This document shows, one piece after another, positions 8,448 to 18,170 of a stretch of 29,613 bases of DNA. Numbering within the stretch: the stretch's first letter is position 1; every line of letters starts with the position of its first letter. The notes under the pieces were generated by a model that did not search any database, was not told where the DNA came from, and saw nothing but the letters and a program-made list of their open reading frames with translations. Made by a program: the position numbers and the translations under genes. The stretch comes from a virus. The DNA is taken from IMG/VR virus record IMGVR_UViG_3300022221_000018, positions 1 through 29,613 of that record, one strand, 5' to 3'.

Positions 8448-9155
8448 ATGCCAGCTATTAAAGGTATTTTAAGTTTTGCACACATCTTCACTGCTGAGAA
8501 GCCGAAGGGGTCCGATGAGCCTAAGTTTTCTGGTACGTTGTTACTACCACCAGGAGACCCGCAGATTGCTGTTATCGAAGCCGAAGTGAATACTGCAAAA
8601 CAGAACACGTTCCCATCAGGGTTCCCGGCAGCCAGTGAATCTTGTTTCGGTCCGTATGATGCGAAGTTTCAGGGTAAAGAATACTACGACCCGCGCATGA
8701 GTGGATGGTATGTTCTATCTTTCACTGCAAAAGCAGCAGATAAACCTGCCGTTGTAGATATGGTCCATCAGCCAATCATTGACCCATCAGCCGTACCATC
8801 AGGTACAATTGTCTGGGTACACCTTGGCATCTCTGGGTACACTAAAGGTAAAGGTGGTGTTGGCGGCTGGCTGAACGGTGTAATGACTACGGGTAAGATG
8901 GGTCAGTTTGGTAACCTAACAGGCAAACCATCGGTTGAAGGCATGTTCGGTAATGTTGGAACTGCTCCTGCTGCTCCTGCTGCTCCTGCTGCTCCTGCTG
9001 CTCCTGCTGCTCCTGCTGCTCCTGCTGCTCCTGCTGCTCCTGCTGCTCCTGCTGGACCACAGATGACACCGAAGGCTGCGGGTGTCACCTATGAAGCATA
9101 TCAGACTGCAGGTTGGACTGATGTACAGCTTCGTGCTGAAGGTCTGATGATCTAA
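8448..9155 (+). CDS. DUF2815 single-stranded DNA-binding protein
   Basis: The product is 235 residues with CTGAGGAATAAAAATC before the start. The N-terminal 165 residues match the phage DUF2815/SSB family (SFAHIFTAEKPKG, FSGTLLLP, later GISGYTKGKGGVGGWLNG), predicted OB-fold. Residues 173-202 are ten exact APA repeats. The end (KAAGVTYEAY, GWTDVQLRAEGLMI) is a short conserved motif shared with the 6555 gene. SSB would coat unwound DNA and use the C-terminal motif as a docking peptide, like the tail of bacterial SSB, though the motif itself is different; the docking idea is inference. A strong terminator follows. Confidence 0.85.
   Translation: MPAIKGILSFAHIFTAEKPKGSDEPKFSGTLLLPPGDPQIAVIEAEVNTAKQNTFPSGFPAASESCFGPYDAKFQGKEYYDPRMSGWYVLSFTAKAADKPAVVDMVHQPIIDPSAVPSGTIVWVHLGISGYTKGKGGVGGWLNGVMTTGKMGQFGNLTGKPSVEGMFGNVGTAPAAPAAPAAPAAPAAPAAPAAPAAPAAPAGPQMTPKAAGVTYEAYQTAGWTDVQLRAEGLMI
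8964..9053 (+). repeat. Ten exact copies of a 9-bp repeat inside the SSB gene
   Basis: The unit GCTCCTGCT is repeated ten times without a single mismatch over 90 bases, encoding Ala-Pro-Ala each time. No synonymous drift is seen, so expansion by slippage was recent or is ongoing. The tract forms a flexible linker between the DNA-binding domain and the C-terminal motif. Long open frames on the other strand here are by-products of the repeat. Confidence 0.98.
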
Positions 9156-9216: not shown

Positions 9217-10626
9217 ATGAGTGACTGGATCTACGACATTGAATCGTTCCCGAACTTTTTCAGCTTCTATGCTACCAACGCCACAGCCGATGATCAGAAG
9301 CTGTTTGAAATAAGCTGGCGTAGAAATGATGTGGATGCTTTTTTAAACTTCATGAACTGGTGTGCAGGACAAGGTGATCGACACGTTGGTTTTAATAACA
9401 TGGGTTACGATTACCCGATACTACACTGGATCATGCGTCAACCACGCGACCAGGTTAATGCGTTGACCATCTATCGGAAGTCGAAGGAGATCCTGGGTAC
9501 AGCATGGAACCAACGCTTCCAGCATCGTGTCTGGGATGATGATCATGTAGTCCCGCAGATCGATCTGTTCATGCTTCACCACTTCGACAATATGGCACGA
9601 TCAACATCATTGAAGGAGCTGCAATTCAACATGAGATCTGATTCAGTGATGGAGTCAACGGTTCCGTTTGATAAAATTGTCACCTTCACTGAGATGGATG
9701 AAATCATTGCATATAACATTCATGACACGGATGAAACACTGAGGTTTTATGACGAGTCTATTGGTGAGATTAAGTTTCGTGAAGAGTTAAGCGGAATGTG
9801 GGGAAAGAATATTCTCAACCACAATGCCACAAAAATAGGTAAAGAACACTTCATTGATGAACTGCAGAAGCGTTCACCGGGTTCATGTTACGAGCCAGGT
9901 ACACGAACTAAACGTCAGACAATTCGTGACAGTATTGCACTGAACGATGTTATTTTTGATTATGTAAAATTTGACCATCCCGAATTGAATCGAGTGCTTG
10001 CATATCTCAAGAGCCAGGTGATCGTTGAAACCAAAGGTGTGTTCAAAAACCTCACCGCCACGGTCAACGGCTTCGACTTCGACTTTGGTACGGGTGGCAT
10101 TCACGGTGCGGTAGATAATTCGATATGGCGAAGCGATGAAGATTATACTGTGGAAATGAGAGACGTTGTAAGCTATTATCCTAGTTTAGCTATTGCGAAT
10201 CGGATCCACCCGGCACACCTGGGTGAAGTTTTTTGCGATGTTTACGAAGAATTATTCAATGAGCGTAGAAGGCATGCAAAAGGAACCACTGAAAACGCTG
10301 CACTGAAGCTGGCGTTGAACGGAACCTTCGGTGACACCAACTCCAAATACTCACCACTGTTCGATCCGCAGTACGCGATGCAAATCACAATCAATGGTCA
10401 GTTGTTATTATGTATGTTATCCGAAAATCTCATGAGAGTGGACGGTTTACAGATGATTCAAGTAAATACTGATGGTGTTGCAATCTATTATCCACGAAAG
10501 CAGAAACCGCTAGTGGATATGATATGTACGCAGTGGGAAGTTTTGACCAAGCTGGAATTGGAAACGGATGAATACGTGTCTTTATTTCAACGTGACTGTA
10601 ATAATTACATCGGTGTTCAGGAATGA
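9217..10626 (+). CDS. Family B DNA polymerase, N-terminal part (exonuclease and palm)
   Basis: The product is 469 residues with CTGAGGATTTAAC upstream. The 3'-5' exonuclease motifs are visible: DIES at 7-10 (Exo I), FNNMGYDYP (Exo II-like) and YNIHDTDET (Exo III). Polymerase motif A is DVVSYYPS (near 316), motif B KLALNGTFGDT (near 364) and motif C NTDGVAI (T418, D419), so all catalytic residues lie in this fragment. It stops right after NNYIGVQE, where family relatives continue into the thumb. The missing thumb is encoded at 11359-11796, in the same frame, on the far side of a homing endonuclease gene. The stop overlaps that gene as ATGA. Confidence 0.88.
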   Translation: MSDWIYDIESFPNFFSFYATNATADDQKLFEISWRRNDVDAFLNFMNWCAGQGDRHVGFNNMGYDYPILHWIMRQPRDQVNALTIYRKSKEILGTAWNQRFQHRVWDDDHVVPQIDLFMLHHFDNMARSTSLKELQFNMRSDSVMESTVPFDKIVTFTEMDEIIAYNIHDTDETLRFYDESIGEIKFREELSGMWGKNILNHNATKIGKEHFIDELQKRSPGSCYEPGTRTKRQTIRDSIALNDVIFDYVKFDHPELNRVLAYLKSQVIVETKGVFKNLTATVNGFDFDFGTGGIHGAVDNSIWRSDEDYTVEMRDVVSYYPSLAIANRIHPAHLGEVFCDVYEELFNERRRHAKGTTENAALKLALNGTFGDTNSKYSPLFDPQYAMQITINGQLLLCMLSENLMRVDGLQMIQVNTDGVAIYYPRKQKPLVDMICTQWEVLTKLELETDEYVSLFQRDCNNYIGVQE

Positions 10627-11375
10627 CTATTGGTATTTATTTCATTGAACACTCTGTCAGTGGGAAAATGTATGTAGGTAAGTCTGTGAATATTGAACAT
10701 CGGATCAGTAGTCACAAATGTAATCTTAGAAAAAAGAACCCTTCCTTGAAATCCATTAACAGATACCTTCATGCTGCCGTTCAGAAGTATGGATGGGGTT
10801 CATTTGAAACAGGTGTTCTGGAAACATTTGATTCAGTTGATGAAAGATTAATCGGTGAACGTGAATTATATTGGATGGATCATTTTGACACCTGTAATAC
10901 TGGTTACAATTTAAGACGGGATACTTCTACAGGAATGATAGTTCATCCTGAAACAAGGAAACTAAAATCAGCTCAAGTGCGAGGTGAAAATAATCCGAAC
11001 TTCGGAAACAACTGGTCACCTGAACAAAAACAACGAATGTCTGAAATAAAAAGACAACAGCACATAGATGGTACAGACGGTATAACCGAGGATGTACGGA
11101 AAAGGAAAGGGGAAATTACTTCAAAGTTCTGGAAGGATAACCCAGACATTAAGGAAAGAATGAGTCGTAAGGTTTCAAAATCCAAACAGAAGTACAATTT
11201 TCACCAACTCAATGAGGACGGATCGCTGGTTAAAATTTGGCCATCAGTTGAAGATATTATTAAAGTAAATCCTGAATGGAAATGGCAGAACATTTATTCA
11301 GTATGTAACGGTTATAAGAAAAGAATATACGGTTTCAAATGGAAAAAGGTATTGAAAGATGAAAATAAAACGTAA
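10623..11375 (+). CDS. GIY-YIG homing endonuclease inserted in the polymerase gene
   Basis: The product is 250 residues. The GIY-YIG domain fills residues 1-100: GIYFIE (4-9), MYVGKS (16-21), a conserved R27, E81 and N96 (GYNL). DNA-binding modules follow: NUMOD3-like (RGENNPNFGNNWSPEQK, about 119-135) and NUMOD1-like (IWPSVEDIIK, then NIYSVCNGYKKRIYGFKW) at the end. It overlaps the polymerase N part by four bases and the C part by 17, leaving no room for a group I intron. It should cut uninterrupted polymerase alleles at the thumb junction and copy itself in. All domains look intact. Confidence 0.9.
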   Translation: MTIGIYFIEHSVSGKMYVGKSVNIEHRISSHKCNLRKKNPSLKSINRYLHAAVQKYGWGSFETGVLETFDSVDERLIGERELYWMDHFDTCNTGYNLRRDTSTGMIVHPETRKLKSAQVRGENNPNFGNNWSPEQKQRMSEIKRQQHIDGTDGITEDVRKRKGEITSKFWKDNPDIKERMSRKVSKSKQKYNFHQLNEDGSLVKIWPSVEDIIKVNPEWKWQNIYSVCNGYKKRIYGFKWKKVLKDENKT

Positions 11376-11796
11376 GGGTACTTACCAATATCATTTAGGC
11401 TGGCATCAAAACCACTCAGCATTGGTTGTACCAAAGGCTGCTGAAGCGGCGCTAGTTCGTGGTGAGAACATTCGTGAGTTCATTGAGGCACATGATAACA
11501 TCTTTGACTTCATGCTTCGTGCGAAGATCCCTAGAACCGGTCGATTAGAGTCTGAGGATTATTACGGTAAACGTCAGGTTGAACAGAACCTCTCACGCTA
11601 CATGATCAGTATGACAGGTGTAGATCTGTTTAAAATAATGCCACCACTCGCAGGTAAGGATGAGGAACGCCAGTTCGCCATCAACAAGGGTTACAAGACG
11701 ACTATCTGCAATGACATTAAGGATGCGAACCCGGATGACATAGAGTTTGAATGGTACATTCGTGAAGCACATAAGCTGGTCGATCCGTTAATGTGA
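11359..11796 (+). CDS. Family B DNA polymerase, C-terminal part (thumb)
   Basis: The product is 145 residues. It continues the family B sequence exactly where the first part stops: KIKRKGTYQYHLGWHQNHSA, then PKAAEAALVRGENIREFI and FKIMPPLAG. Relatives run from NNYI.V to KRKG in one chain. It starts with its own ATG inside the end of the GIY-YIG gene (17-base overlap), so re-initiation after that gene probably supplies it. Two chains of 469 and 145 residues would then have to assemble. No catalytic residue is lost, but thumb contacts with primer-template DNA depend on the association. Confidence 0.87.
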   Translation: MKIKRKGTYQYHLGWHQNHSALVVPKAAEAALVRGENIREFIEAHDNIFDFMLRAKIPRTGRLESEDYYGKRQVEQNLSRYMISMTGVDLFKIMPPLAGKDEERQFAINKGYKTTICNDIKDANPDDIEFEWYIREAHKLVDPLM

Positions 11797-11879: not shown

Positions 11880-12446
11880 ATGAAACTAATACTACCAGCA
11901 GCAGCATTAAGGGCTGCATTCATTGTGGCAGCAAAGCAAGACGTTCGTTACTATCTTAATGGTGTGTTCATCTCAAAGGCTGGTGACATAATTGCCACAG
12001 ATGGTCACCGTTTGATAGCAATGTGTATAGGTGTTGAACTACCTGAAGACTTCCCTGAACGTGGTGTGATACTAAGCAGACCACCTAGTACCATTCCTGC
12101 AAGGTTGCCCGATGACAATATAACAGTGGATTTGAACTTGGAACAATGGACTGGAACAATGGACTGGAATATGGGGATATTTCCTATAACCGTTATTGAT
12201 GGTAATTTTCCAGACTGGAACCGCGTTATACCCCGCGAAGCTCACCCTGAAGATTGTTTCTGGGGTGTTAGTACAAAATACTTAGCAGACCTTCCTCGTA
12301 TATCTAAAGCACTAGGGACGCTCAACAATAACGTCAAGATGATGTTACCTGCTGATTCAAATTCGAGTGCCACGTTCGATTTCAAATGGGGTGGAGCGAA
12401 TGAACCTCACACTGCTATCTATGTCCAAATGGGTGTGAAACTTTAA
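11880..12446 (+). CDS. Short DnaN-like sliding clamp protein
   Basis: The product is 188 residues with CTGAGGAATCTGAACG upstream. AAKQDVRYYLNGVFI and ATDGHRLIAM (39-48) match the conserved core of bacterial beta clamps, where the ATDGHRLA segment is diagnostic, and VIDGNFPDWNRVIP (about 104-117) matches the VIDGKFPDY segment. Bacterial DnaN has about 366 residues in three similar domains, so this is about half-length. A ring would need more subunits or a host partner, or it may act as a non-ring processivity factor. Its place after the polymerase and behind its own promoter fits a replisome role. Confidence 0.72.
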   Translation: MKLILPAAALRAAFIVAAKQDVRYYLNGVFISKAGDIIATDGHRLIAMCIGVELPEDFPERGVILSRPPSTIPARLPDDNITVDLNLEQWTGTMDWNMGIFPITVIDGNFPDWNRVIPREAHPEDCFWGVSTKYLADLPRISKALGTLNNNVKMMLPADSNSSATFDFKWGGANEPHTAIYVQMGVKL

Positions 12447-14560: not shown

Positions 14561-14748
14561 GCGTTACATGTTGGACACCTTACCCTGATTGCGATGATTT
14601 TTATTGCAACATTCACAAAGAACACGCTGCGGATTGCGCTTATCCTAGTGTTGACGTATGGGTTGAATCTGGTTTGTGGCCCTACGAGAATGAAGTTAAT
14701 GAGGATGTACTTACTTTTGTAACAGATAACCCCTTGGTGGATGAATAA
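14557..14748 (+). CDS. Small Cys-rich acidic hypothetical protein
   Basis: The product is 63 residues, starting in an ATGA overlap with the methyltransferase stop. Four cysteines and a histidine in the first half (CWTPYPDCDDFYCNIHKEH then DC) could bind a metal. The rest is acidic. Its stop shares a base with the helicase start (TAATG). No family is recognised. Confidence 0.6.
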   Translation: MSVTCWTPYPDCDDFYCNIHKEHAADCAYPSVDVWVESGLWPYENEVNEDVLTFVTDNPLVDE

Positions 14749-17700
14749 TGCTTAAACCACAACAGTTCTTTCCGTACCAACGCAAAGCCATCATCCACCA
14801 AATCACCCATAATGAGTCGATGCTGTGGTTGGACATGGGTTTGGGTAAAGAGCAACCAAACTCCGAACCAGTATTAACACCATCAGGTTGGGTTAATATG
14901 GGTGATCTGAAACCCGGTATGTTTGTCATCGGTTCTAACGGTACACCTTCTGAAATTCTAAGTGTTCACCCTCAAGGTGTGAAGGATGTTCTCAGAATCA
15001 CATTCAATGATGGATCATGGACTCGTTGTGGATGGGATCACATCTGGATGGTTCAGACTGCGACACAGAAGAAACGTGAACAGGGTTTCCAGAAGATGAC
15101 AACCCGTGAACTGATTGACTCAGGTTTACGTTCCGGTCCTAATCGTAAATGGTCAATACCTTTGATTTCAAAACCAGTGTCATATATTGCAGTTGATCTA
15201 CCAGTCAGTCCTTATTTAATGGGTGTAATTTTAGGTGACGGCAACATCTCAGAAAAAAGTGGTGTAACTGTCTGCACTGACGTTGAGATTATCAGAAGCC
15301 ATCTTGGTTTGAATGTCACTAGGAAACACGAGACATCGGGATACACCGGATATACTTATATACCAGGTGTGAAGCAGATCATGCGCGAACTCGGACTCAT
15401 GGGTAAACTGAGTCATGAAAAGTTTGTGCCTGAGATATATCTTCGTGGATCAAAACGTCAACGACTTTTGTTGTTGAAAGGATTGTTGGACACTGACGGG
15501 TCACCAATTACCTGTGGTGGTGGGGTTGAGTTCTCATCTAGCTCTGAATCACTTGCTGACTCTGTTGTGGAATTAACCCAGTCACTAGGTGGTGTTGCTA
15601 GAAAGTCAGATTCCAGAATCACAAGGTATCAAAATGGTGAAGGTCGCTCGAGCTGGCGTGTCAATGTAAAACTTCCGTCAGAACTTGAACCGTTCAAGTT
15701 GAAACGAAAATTGGACAAGTGGATTAGACCAACGAAGTATCAACCAGTACGATACATTGAATCGATTGAACCTGAAGATTATCAGGAAGAGTCAACCTGT
15801 ATCAGTGTGGGTGCTGCTGATTCACTCTACGTGACTAGGAACCATATTGTTACTCACAACACACCGATCACGTTGACCACCATCGAGCATCGCATTCGCA
15901 TGGGTGAGATTAAGAAGTGTCTCATCGTTGGACCTGTTCGTGTCATCATCGCTGTATGGGAGCGGGAAGCTCGGAAGTGGGAGCATACAAAACATCTCAG
16001 CTTCAGTGTAATCCGTGGTACACCAGAACAGCGACTTCGCGCCATGTTCCGTGAAGCTGACATCCACTTGGTCAATTACGAGAACCTTGCTTGGTTGTCG
16101 AATCAGTTGACACACTACTACCTAAATCAGAATCAAGAGATCCCTTGGCAGATGTGTGTTTATGATGAAGTGTCAAAGATGAAGAATGCTCAGGCGCAAC
16201 GTATGAAGGGTGGTGTGCGTACTATGAACAAAGGGAAACCAAACGAAACCAAAACACAGTTCATTGGTTGGAAGAAGATCATTCCCCACTTCAAGTACAA
16301 GACTGGATTGACTGGGACACCTGCTTCCAATGGTTACCTGGATCTTCATGGACAGTATCTGGCTATCGATGGTGGCGAACGATTAGGTGAATTCATCAGT
16401 CACTTCAGGGATCGTTACTTCTCTGCAGATTACATGGGGTTCAACCATGAAGTGACTGATGTTGGTAAGGTCATGATCGAAGATCGTATTGCTGACATCA
16501 CAATTAAAATGGATGCTGAGGATTATTTGGACATTCCCCCTGTAAAGTTCAACGACATTTGGATACAGATTACAGATAAAGTTCGTAGTCAGTATGATGA
16601 CATTGAGAAAGATATGTTCACTCGACTCGATGATGGGACTGAGATTGAAGTGTTCAATCGTGCATCGGTATCCAACAAGTGTTTGCAGTTCTGCAATGGA
16701 TCCGCTTACAACGAGCCTGGACAACCTGAGTGGTCGCACGTTCATGATGAGAAGTTGGACGCGGTGGGTGACATCCTAGAGGAAGCAGCCGGATCACCTG
16801 TGTTGCTGGGTTACACTTTCAGAATGGATGCTGAACGCATCATGAAAAAGTACAAGCATTACAACCCGGTGAACTTGACCACCACACCAACTGCACAATT
16901 ACCTGCAACATTGGAGCGTTGGAACCAGGGGAAAATACGATTAATGATCGGTCATCCTGCGTGCTTACATCCATCAACTCAAGTGTTGACTGAACGGTGT
17001 GGATGGGTCAAACTCATGGATGTTAAACTAAATGATCGGGTGTTTGATGGTGTTGAGTTTGTTGAACACGATGGTTGTAGCTATTCAGGTTATAAAGAAG
17101 TCACTGATGTTTTCGGCATCACTATGACACCAGACCATAAGTTATTTATCGGGGATGAATGGGTGGAGGCTCGAAATGTTGGAGATTCTGAAGAAGTTAG
17201 AACAGAAGCATTATACCAATACGAAGGTGATGACCCTGGCGTTGGTGAGATGTTTGAGATGTCAGACCGAGTTCAAAATAATTCACCAGAATGCAGTGAA
17301 ACACAATCGACTGAATCGGACCCATTGTCAACACTGTGTTCAAGATCGGCATCACAATCTCACTGGAACGCGAATCTGGAGAATCTGGTGCGGGATGAAG
17401 CATCGATCTTTGAATCAGCAGGATCAAAACTACGCAGCTCGTGGAATAACAATATGCGACAGATGGCTGGAGTTCCCCAACTTTTACGAAGACATGTGCG
17501 AAGATTACTCGGACGACTTAACACTGGAGCGAATCGATGTGAACAAGTCATACTCAAAAGAGAATTGCACCTGGGTGACAGCATTTGCACAACAAGGCAA
17601 CAAGCGAATGAATCGACGCTTCATTTATCAGGGGGAAGACATTCATCTAGCAGAACTGTGTCGTCGTTCAGGCTTCAGCAAGATGATGTTGACTACGCGA

Positions 17701-18170
17701 TTGAACCAGGGAATGACAGTCGAAGAAGCCGTACTGGATGCTCAAAACTCACCTTACGGGAAGAGTATGAGGCAGGTGAATGTGAGGCGAAGGGAAGCCA
17801 GAAAGAACACGTCTATGACCTTGTGAACTGCGGTCCACGTCATCAGTTCCTCATTAGGAATGACGAAGGTGAAGTGTTCATCTCGCATAATTCAATGGGA
17901 CATGGTATTGACGGACTGCAGGACACAGGACACATCCTGGTGTGGTTTGGTTTACCGTGGTCGTTGGAGTTTTACTATCAGATGATTGGTCGGTTGAAAC
18001 GGACCGGACAAACGAAGCCTGTCATTGTGCATCAGTTGTTGATTGAGGGTACTCTGGATCTAGCTGTGTTGGATGCACTTCGACGAAAAGCAACAGATGA
18101 AGCAGGTCTGAAGCAATCCATCGACAGGTATCGTCAAGGTCAAGTTACAAAGGAGTTGAGCTTCCTTTAG
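14748..18170 (+). CDS. SNF2-type helicase with two inteins
   Basis: The frame codes for 1,140 residues, but removal of two inteins (35-371 and 739-1048) leaves a 493-residue helicase, a usual phage SNF2-like size. Extein motifs: N-terminal FPYQRKAI (Q-like motif), Walker A WLDMGLGK/TPITL (split by intein 1), Walker B-type VYDEVSKMKN, motif III TGLTGTPASN, motif V HPA/SMGHGIDGLQ (split by intein 2), motif VI QMIGRLKRTGQ. It likely remodels or unwinds DNA during replication or recombination. Until both inteins splice, the ATP site is broken, so activity depends on splicing. The 3' end overlaps the convergent holin-like gene by 26 bases. Confidence 0.9.
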   Translation: MLKPQQFFPYQRKAIIHQITHNESMLWLDMGLGKEQPNSEPVLTPSGWVNMGDLKPGMFVIGSNGTPSEILSVHPQGVKDVLRITFNDGSWTRCGWDHIWMVQTATQKKREQGFQKMTTRELIDSGLRSGPNRKWSIPLISKPVSYIAVDLPVSPYLMGVILGDGNISEKSGVTVCTDVEIIRSHLGLNVTRKHETSGYTGYTYIPGVKQIMRELGLMGKLSHEKFVPEIYLRGSKRQRLLLLKGLLDTDGSPITCGGGVEFSSSSESLADSVVELTQSLGGVARKSDSRITRYQNGEGRSSWRVNVKLPSELEPFKLKRKLDKWIRPTKYQPVRYIESIEPEDYQEESTCISVGAADSLYVTRNHIVTHNTPITLTTIEHRIRMGEIKKCLIVGPVRVIIAVWEREARKWEHTKHLSFSVIRGTPEQRLRAMFREADIHLVNYENLAWLSNQLTHYYLNQNQEIPWQMCVYDEVSKMKNAQAQRMKGGVRTMNKGKPNETKTQFIGWKKIIPHFKYKTGLTGTPASNGYLDLHGQYLAIDGGERLGEFISHFRDRYFSADYMGFNHEVTDVGKVMIEDRIADITIKMDAEDYLDIPPVKFNDIWIQITDKVRSQYDDIEKDMFTRLDDGTEIEVFNRASVSNKCLQFCNGSAYNEPGQPEWSHVHDEKLDAVGDILEEAAGSPVLLGYTFRMDAERIMKKYKHYNPVNLTTTPTAQLPATLERWNQGKIRLMIGHPACLHPSTQVLTERCGWVKLMDVKLNDRVFDGVEFVEHDGCSYSGYKEVTDVFGITMTPDHKLFIGDEWVEARNVGDSEEVRTEALYQYEGDDPGVGEMFEMSDRVQNNSPECSETQSTESDPLSTLCSRSASQSHWNANLENLVRDEASIFESAGSKLRSSWNNNMRQMAGVPQLLRRHVRRLLGRLNTGANRCEQVILKRELHLGDSICTTRQQANESTLHLSGGRHSSSRTVSSFRLQQDDVDYAIEPGNDSRRSRTGCSKLTLREEYEAGECEAKGSQKEHVYDLVNCGPRHQFLIRNDEGEVFISHNSMGHGIDGLQDTGHILVWFGLPWSLEFYYQMIGRLKRTGQTKPVIVHQLLIEGTLDLAVLDALRRKATDEAGLKQSIDRYRQGQVTKELSFL
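14850..15860 (+). mobile_element. Intein 1, class 3-like, with LAGLIDADG endonuclease, in the P-loop
   Basis: This 337-residue insert lies between GLGK and TPITL of Walker A. It starts with Glu-Gln (EQPNSEPVLTPSGW) and not Cys or Ser, so classical N-terminal chemistry is impossible. The class 3 'WCT' signature is present: block B GWDHIW with Trp two residues after His98, block F TCISV with Cys351, block G IVTHN with Thr369, followed by Thr as +1. The endonuclease domain has both LAGLIDADG motifs with acidic residues: YLMGVILGDG (about 154-163) and LLKGLLDTDG (about 241-250). It should therefore be mobile. The precise first residue (Glu35 or Gln36) is judged from restoration of GKT. Confidence 0.85.
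16962..17891 (+). mobile_element. Intein 2, class 1, in helicase motif V, with nested out-of-frame gene
   Basis: This 310-residue insert lies between HPA and SMGHGIDG. It has Cys739 at its start, block A wording (STQVLTERCGWVKLMD), block B TPDHKLFIG (His797), block F HVYDLV (Asp1024) and block G EVFISHN with Ser as +1, so class 1 splicing looks intact. Between blocks B and F the in-frame protein (about 800-1020) is low-complexity, rich in Ser, Arg and Glu, and has no endonuclease motif. The same bases in the +1 frame encode a homing-endonuclease-like protein (17176-17826). Confidence 0.88.
17176..17826 (+). CDS. Homing endonuclease-like gene nested in intein 2, +1 frame
   Basis: The product is 216 residues from ATG 17176, with GGAGG (17165-17169) six bases upstream; the ATG at 17155 lacks room for a ribosome site. 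It has a zinc-ribbon-like start (CLRC and CQHC), then TRIWRIWCGMKHRS, ARGITICDRW, FPNFYEDM and LERIDVNKSYSKENCTWVT. These match a widespread phage and mobile-element family read as HNH-like (typical wording GGRGI.VC..W, LDRID..G.Y...NCRW.T). The end (YQGEDIHLAELCRRSGFS, then TRLNQGMTVEEAV) is the family's helix-turn-helix. It begins just after intein block B and ends within block F, so it replaces the usual in-frame endonuclease domain. Activity is unproven. Confidence 0.8.
   Translation: MLEILKKLEQKHYTNTKVMTLALVRCLRCQTEFKIIHQNAVKHNRLNRTHCQHCVQDRHHNLTGTRIWRIWCGMKHRSLNQQDQNYAARGITICDRWLEFPNFYEDMCEDYSDDLTLERIDVNKSYSKENCTWVTAFAQQGNKRMNRRFIYQGEDIHLAELCRRSGFSKMMLTTRLNQGMTVEEAVLDAQNSPYGKSMRQVNVRRREARKNTSMTL

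Follow-up and report, generated by a model that had tools for sequence, protein, structure and literature searches.

A family B DNA polymerase gene interrupted by a GIY-YIG endonuclease gene at the palm-thumb hairpin: a predicted two-chain phage replicase

Splitting of an enzyme into two chains by insertion of an intronless endonuclease gene is established in phages, with NrdA of Aeh1 and the DNA polymerase gp43A/43B of Aeromonas phage 25 as examples (PMC2988022). The two gp43 chains are described there, with reference to Petrov et al. 2010, as co-purifying with activity. HNH endonucleases are likewise known more generally to accompany polymerase genes (PMC10448857). Here we analyzed a 29,613-nt stretch of viral DNA (IMG/VR record IMGVR_UViG_3300022221_000018), referred to below as the window, in which a family B DNA polymerase gene is split by a GIY-YIG gene. 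It is highly probable, in our judgement, that the GIY-YIG gene was inserted without an intron into the hairpin turn between palm and thumb, that the polymerase is predicted correctly as a working two-chain replicative enzyme, and that the element spread by homing. What appears new is the polymerase family, the palm-thumb hairpin as the site, its reuse by nucleases of unrelated kinds, the recruitment of start signals and the exchange of palm cassettes. No description of a palm-thumb hotspot was found in the open-access literature, which was the scope of our search (subscription papers lay outside it). Few phage enzymes are less expendable than a replicative polymerase, and yet here it has been cut again and again at a single position and retained as two chains.

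Organization of the locus and position of the break

The features of the locus are listed in Table 1. A preliminary description, made from the sequence of the window, had read it as a family B polymerase gene split by a GIY-YIG gene; the coordinates, the lengths and the overlaps of 4 and 17 nt were all reproduced. Part 1 ends in RDCNNYIGVQE and part 2 begins with MKIKRKGTYQY. The two parts match positions 53-508 and 512-651, respectively, of the 663 positions of phrog_1252 (DNA polymerase), leaving a gap of three profile positions, one of which is occupied by the new start Met. Both parts are in frame 1; that they share a frame had been claimed before, but it is not a general feature of split genes, since other inserts are 503, 712 and 739 nt long. 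The GIY-YIG ORF is in a different frame, and frame 1 between the polymerase parts contains many stops.

All exonuclease and polymerase motifs of part 1 are preserved in the alignment with relatives (YDIES, DVVSYYPS, KLALNGTFG and NTDG). The catalytic residues conserved in this alignment are D7 and E9 of Exo I, D316 followed by YYPS in motif A, K364 followed by NGTFG in motif B, and D419 of NTDG in motif C. The endonuclease matches PF01541 (GIY-YIG, 4.8e-11) and PF07460 (NUMOD3, 3e-6) as well as PHROG homing endonuclease families, and its candidate catalytic residues are G4-I5-Y6, Y17-V18-G19, R27, E81 and N96.

Table 1. Coordinates of the split polymerase locus and of other features in the window.
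Feature	Coordinates	Strand	Evidence
Single-strand DNA-binding protein	8448-9155		
Polymerase part 1 (469 aa), exonuclease/palm/fingers	9217-10626	+	ORF call; phrog_1252, 4.2e-148
Strand end NNYIGVQE, palm side of the beta-hairpin	10600-10623	+	AlphaFold model of continuous homologue; KOD/9N profile alignment
ATGA overlap, part 1 stop / endonuclease start	10623-10626	+	ORF calls
GIY-YIG + NUMOD3 homing endonuclease gene (250 aa)	10623-11375	+	Pfam, PHROG, motif positions
Shine-Dalgarno-like AAAAAGG, within endonuclease 3' end	11343-11349	+	9 nt before part 2 start; duplex -4.4 kcal/mol
17-nt overlap, endonuclease 3' end / part 2 start	11359-11375	+	ORF calls
Polymerase part 2 (145 aa), thumb, from second hairpin strand	11359-11796	+	phrog_1252, 3.2e-30; phrog_15833, 2.2e-39
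188-aa protein with single central beta-clamp domain	11880-12446		PF02767, 2.3e-7
SNF2-type helicase (1140 aa)	14748-18170		
First in-frame helicase insert	14850-15860		Intein-like ends; LAGLIDADG
Second in-frame helicase insert	16962-17891		Intein-like ends

Replication genes adjoin the split polymerase, encoding a PHROG exonuclease (DUF2800), a single-strand binding protein and a beta-clamp-like protein. Other replication genes in the neighbourhood encode a VRR nuclease, a methylase, an SNF2 helicase and a primase. Some of these genes have features of their own. The single-strand DNA-binding protein carries a long Pro-Ala-Ala repeat ahead of its C-terminal end. The 188-aa protein, encoded directly downstream of part 2, matches only one domain of the bacterial beta clamp, the central one, and may be a sliding clamp of the phage with an unusual size. 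The SNF2-type helicase compares with one of 468 aa in phage DSL-LC05. Its first insert (GLGK/E...VTHN/T, slashes marking the ends) interrupts the Walker A motif; because it starts with Glu and not with Cys or Ser, it may belong to the class 3-type inteins; the second insert has the ends GHPA/C...ISHN/S.

The break had been placed between NNYIGVQE and KIKRKGTYQY, where relatives run on. Continuous relatives indeed read NNYIAVYE-xG-KVKRKGAYEY without interruption, mostly with 3-15 nt at the junction. In an AlphaFold model of a continuous homologue, locus L016 (pLDDT 90, pTM 0.83), the break corresponds to the turn of residues 468-472 between strands 462-467 and 473-476. This model matches the PolB fold, with Z scores of 16.2 for KOD, 15.1 for E. 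coli Pol II and 13.9 for RB69. By profile alignment, the junction aligns with KKKYAVIDEE/GKITTRG of KOD-type polymerases, and the palm-side strand NNYIGVQE is the equivalent of the KKRY strand in archaeal PolB. Part 2 of the window was also modelled alone (pLDDT 89). Its residues 1-18 were mostly unordered, with block means of 45 and 61, as would be expected if the first strand needs its palm strand partner.

Recurrence of the junction and traces of homing

Relatives were collected from three viral-contig scans and from named phages, giving 204 non-redundant loci (L numbers) with palm and thumb. They were retrieved with alignment queries; back-translated patterns from a single protein were too specific and gave no matches. 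The same junction is split in 17 of the 204 loci (the window and 16 others), a proportion that is not a frequency, because split sequences guided two of the three successful scans. Chance is excluded because those 16 other non-redundant loci are interrupted at the same junction. The inserts are 501-879 nt long, each with an ORF touching or overlapping part 2.

Sequence comparison sorts the inserted proteins into three groups that are unrelated to one another. GIY-YIG inserts are found in the window, L096, L097 and L098 (with NUMOD3) and in L012, L105 and L223. Zinc-finger T5orf172/MUG113 inserts are found in KLPPOU148, JustaPhage and JD001/L164. HNH_3 inserts are found in PVN06, BUCT_49532, L102, L145, L169, L171, L175, L178 and L207. 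The palm-thumb hairpin is a recurrent break site for unrelated nucleases, which refines the earlier reading. By parsimony, the split or continuous state changed 11 times on the palm and thumb tree, 10 times on the palm tree and 11 times on the thumb tree, with at least 7, 5 and 4 of these changes, respectively, forced by well-supported branches. Close empty sites are available for L105 (L107) and L223 (L020), with mostly 80-95% DNA identity on both sides. Among cultured Jedunavirus isolates, the polymerase is continuous in KpV52 and 1611E-K2-1, split by T5orf172 genes in KLPPOU148, JustaPhage, JD001 and others, and split by HNH in BUCT_49532 and RCIP0045.

Two loci of the set stand somewhat apart. 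L174, a Jedunavirus-like contig of 48,447 bp, has a continuous polymerase with a palm that groups among those of split genes, which implies either a precise loss of the insert or a palm lineage that predates it. In Acinetobacter phage phiAB441 (L012 1111-2864), an extra break in the N-terminal half of the polymerase separates the ORFs 1111-2190 and 2313-2864, so that the gene is in three pieces, in contrast to phage BS46, in which it is whole.

Traces of replacement were found in the flanks of some inserts. PVN06 and PEi21 share 94-98% identity until about 600 bp upstream of the insert and 47-75% from there to the insert; identity of 94-100% resumes where part 2 begins. Between JustaPhage and KpV52, identity is 99-100% once about 200 bp past the junction and 43-71% across the whole of part 1. 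Such one-sided replacement is the trace expected of double-strand-break repair from an endonuclease-bearing donor. Presence and absence of the insert together with co-conversion of its flanks were seen in this way for split relatives with other inserts than that of the window; among the relatives scanned, no near-identical empty-site phage of the window's own polymerase was found. The palm of the window is nearest to split-gene palms (L096, L097), while continuous genes (L183, L192) provide the closest relatives of its thumb.

As a refinement of the earlier reading, these comparisons suggest that the palm co-travels with the endonuclease through gene conversion. In PVN06 the foreign palm would work, or at least it persists, beside the native thumb. 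A selfish gene could thus replace most of a polymerase gene in homing, which affects phylogenies built on that gene. We give about even chances to a broader proposal, in which the hairpin turn is a general permissive break point, split repeatedly by at least three unrelated kinds of homing endonuclease, two-chain replicases are persistent, and palm-endonuclease cassettes cross genera and pair with the thumb of the recipient. If this is true, hybrid two-chain polymerases arise through homing.

Expression, selection and alternative explanations

We propose the following mechanism. A free-standing GIY-YIG gene would have inserted, without an intron, into the beta-hairpin turn joining palm and thumb. 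Part 1 would then terminate at the first hairpin strand, the endonuclease would be translated, likely via coupling at ATGA, and the 3' end of the endonuclease gene would supply the ribosome-binding site and the start codon for part 2. The two chains are predicted to reassemble, with the hairpin strands pairing and the thumb docking, into a working replicative polymerase. The element itself would cut uninterrupted polymerase genes at the conserved hairpin and be copied in along with flanking, mostly upstream (palm), sequence. The comparative evidence favours a working two-chain enzyme, with activity inferred from start signals, purifying selection and the presence of the split gene as sole polymerase in complete cultured phages. 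The proposal of the preliminary description that the phage probably makes its polymerase as two chains gains support from the same three lines.

Part 2 starts with ATG or GTG in all split genes. The mean pairing energy of the 16S tail with the preceding 20 nt was -6.9 kcal/mol for 19 split genes, compared with -2.5 kcal/mol for internal ATG/GTG codons (p 1.2e-10) and -2.1 kcal/mol for the equivalent position of continuous genes (p 2.9e-11). The ribosome-binding signal of the window's own part 2 is only moderate (-4.4 kcal/mol). A consensus scan for a promoter within the insert that could drive part 2 scored equal to or worse than shuffles.

In split pairs, part 1 had a dN/dS of 0.03-0.12 and part 2 one of 0.09-0.24, with a value of about 0.05 in the endonuclease; it was 0.05-0.06 in continuous genes. 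These values show strong purifying selection on both polymerase parts, and they apply to the split relatives and not to the window alone, because synonymous sites between the window and its relatives are saturated. In the pair L171/L175, the endonuclease and the polymerase parts are similarly diverged at synonymous sites (dS about 1.5-2.2). Since dS is similarly large in both, the split is old and was inherited vertically there, and yet it is intact.

A second polymerase was searched for in the window and five complete relatives using PF00476, PF00136, PF07733 and phrog_1252. No family A, B or C polymerase besides the split one was found in the complete genomes of the cultured phages JD001 (a Klebsiella phage), KLPPOU148, JustaPhage, BUCT_49532 and PVN06; PF00136 gave only a sub-threshold match, on the split gene of PVN06 itself. 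No second intact polymerase was found within the 29.6-kb window, which is a fragment of an incomplete genome. Edwardsiella phage PVN06, which forms clear, 1-mm plaques, was published as lacking a DNA polymerase gene, and use of the host machinery was suggested (PMC8465730). PVN06 does carry a split PolB (L005 2378-5080), annotated as hypothetical proteins. The split explains how genome papers can miss the polymerase.

It is quite improbable that the polymerase is inactivated and decaying while the phage relies on host enzymes or on another polymerase. Such a reading could draw on the PVN06 report and on the fragmentary state of the window, but part 1 retains all catalytic residues, both parts are under purifying selection in split relatives, the L171/L175 split has remained intact at dS of about 2, and the five complete split phages have no other polymerase. 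The earlier view that the three frames are intact and belong to a working enzyme, not to decay, is consistent with this evidence.

We consider it very unlikely that an unrecognised group I intron or intein is present and that the parts are spliced into one chain. The insert length of 735 nt is divisible by 3, and a junction near 11356 would yield a product as long as the relatives. In addition, among named isolates the endonuclease is most closely related to that of Flavobacterium phage Fpv1, which interrupts a polymerase gene of the same family at motif A and has group-I-like flanks. Rfam gave nothing credible at the gathering threshold on the window and 18 loci, nor at E up to 10 on the insert; this negative result carries little weight because Rfam misses the apparent Fpv1 intron as well. 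However, the endonuclease ORF overlaps both polymerase parts, leaving no non-coding flanks, which had been the earlier ground for stating that no group I intron fits. The P7-like core motifs, exact in Fpv1, occur in the insert of the window only with 4 and 3 mismatches, a level also reached by shuffles, and almost all other inserts lack them too; the motifs were chosen after Fpv1 had been seen, so Fpv1 is not an independent control for them. Other insert lengths (503, 712 and 739 nt) are not multiples of 3, and in every split gene part 2 begins with a start codon, where ribosome-binding signals are enriched. An intein is ruled out by the endonuclease ORF in the other frame and the stops in frame 1.

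Production of one chain by programmed frameshifting or ribosome hopping across the insert is scarcely credible. The overlaps and the frame changes at both ends of the insert might suggest it, but frame 1 is closed over all 735 nt, so that a double shift would leave the polymerase with about 245 residues of nuclease in its chain, and part 2 has its own initiation signals. To our knowledge, a hop of 500-880 nt would be far beyond known bypass lengths. An assembly or frameshift artefact, conceivable for a metagenomic contig, is already refuted by the same architecture in independent isolates and contigs.

The two-chain reading is directly testable, since split polymerases are present in cultured phages. 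The palm-thumb hairpin would also offer natural designs for split polymerases.

Comparison with known split enzymes

In Aeromonas phage 25, too, a family B polymerase consists of two chains, gp43A and gp43B, and a free-standing GIY-YIG gene separates their coding sequences. However, the phage 25 polymerase is T4-type, while that of the window belongs to phrog_1252 and is split at a site recurring in unrelated phages. The 43A protein (498 aa) ends in ILASRGIKTDH and 43B carries KILINSLYG; the phage 25 site differs from that of the window because its break lies in the fingers before motif B and not in the palm-thumb hairpin. The phage 25 locus also has a group I intron, whereas the insert of the window very probably has none.

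The comparison drawn earlier with NrdA/mobE of Aeh1 holds in one respect, that an intronless homing endonuclease gene splits an essential enzyme, which remains functional as two chains (PMC2988022). It differs in that the endonuclease is HNH and the enzyme is a ribonucleotide reductase, and phage 25 gp43 replaces it as the closest precedent. Flavobacterium phage Fpv1 (L262 1168-4235) has the same polymerase family and a homologous endonuclease, 38.6% identical to that of the window. Its insert differs in its location at motif A, in its non-coding flanks of about 224 and 56 nt and in its group-I-like core motifs. The Fpv1 endonuclease is apparently intron-borne, and it seems that members of a single endonuclease lineage can be either intron-borne or free-standing.

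The split PolB of Methanothermobacter thermautotrophicus is also a family B polymerase made as two polypeptides (PMC7776575), but it is an archaeal cellular enzyme, and the likeness drawn here concerns its encoding by two polypeptides. The polymerases of the Jedunavirus and Yokohamavirus phages JD001, KLPPOU148, JustaPhage, BUCT_49532 and PVN06 share with the window the family, the junction and the three-gene architecture; they differ in the insert, which is T5orf172/zinc-finger or HNH_3 instead of GIY-YIG with NUMOD3.
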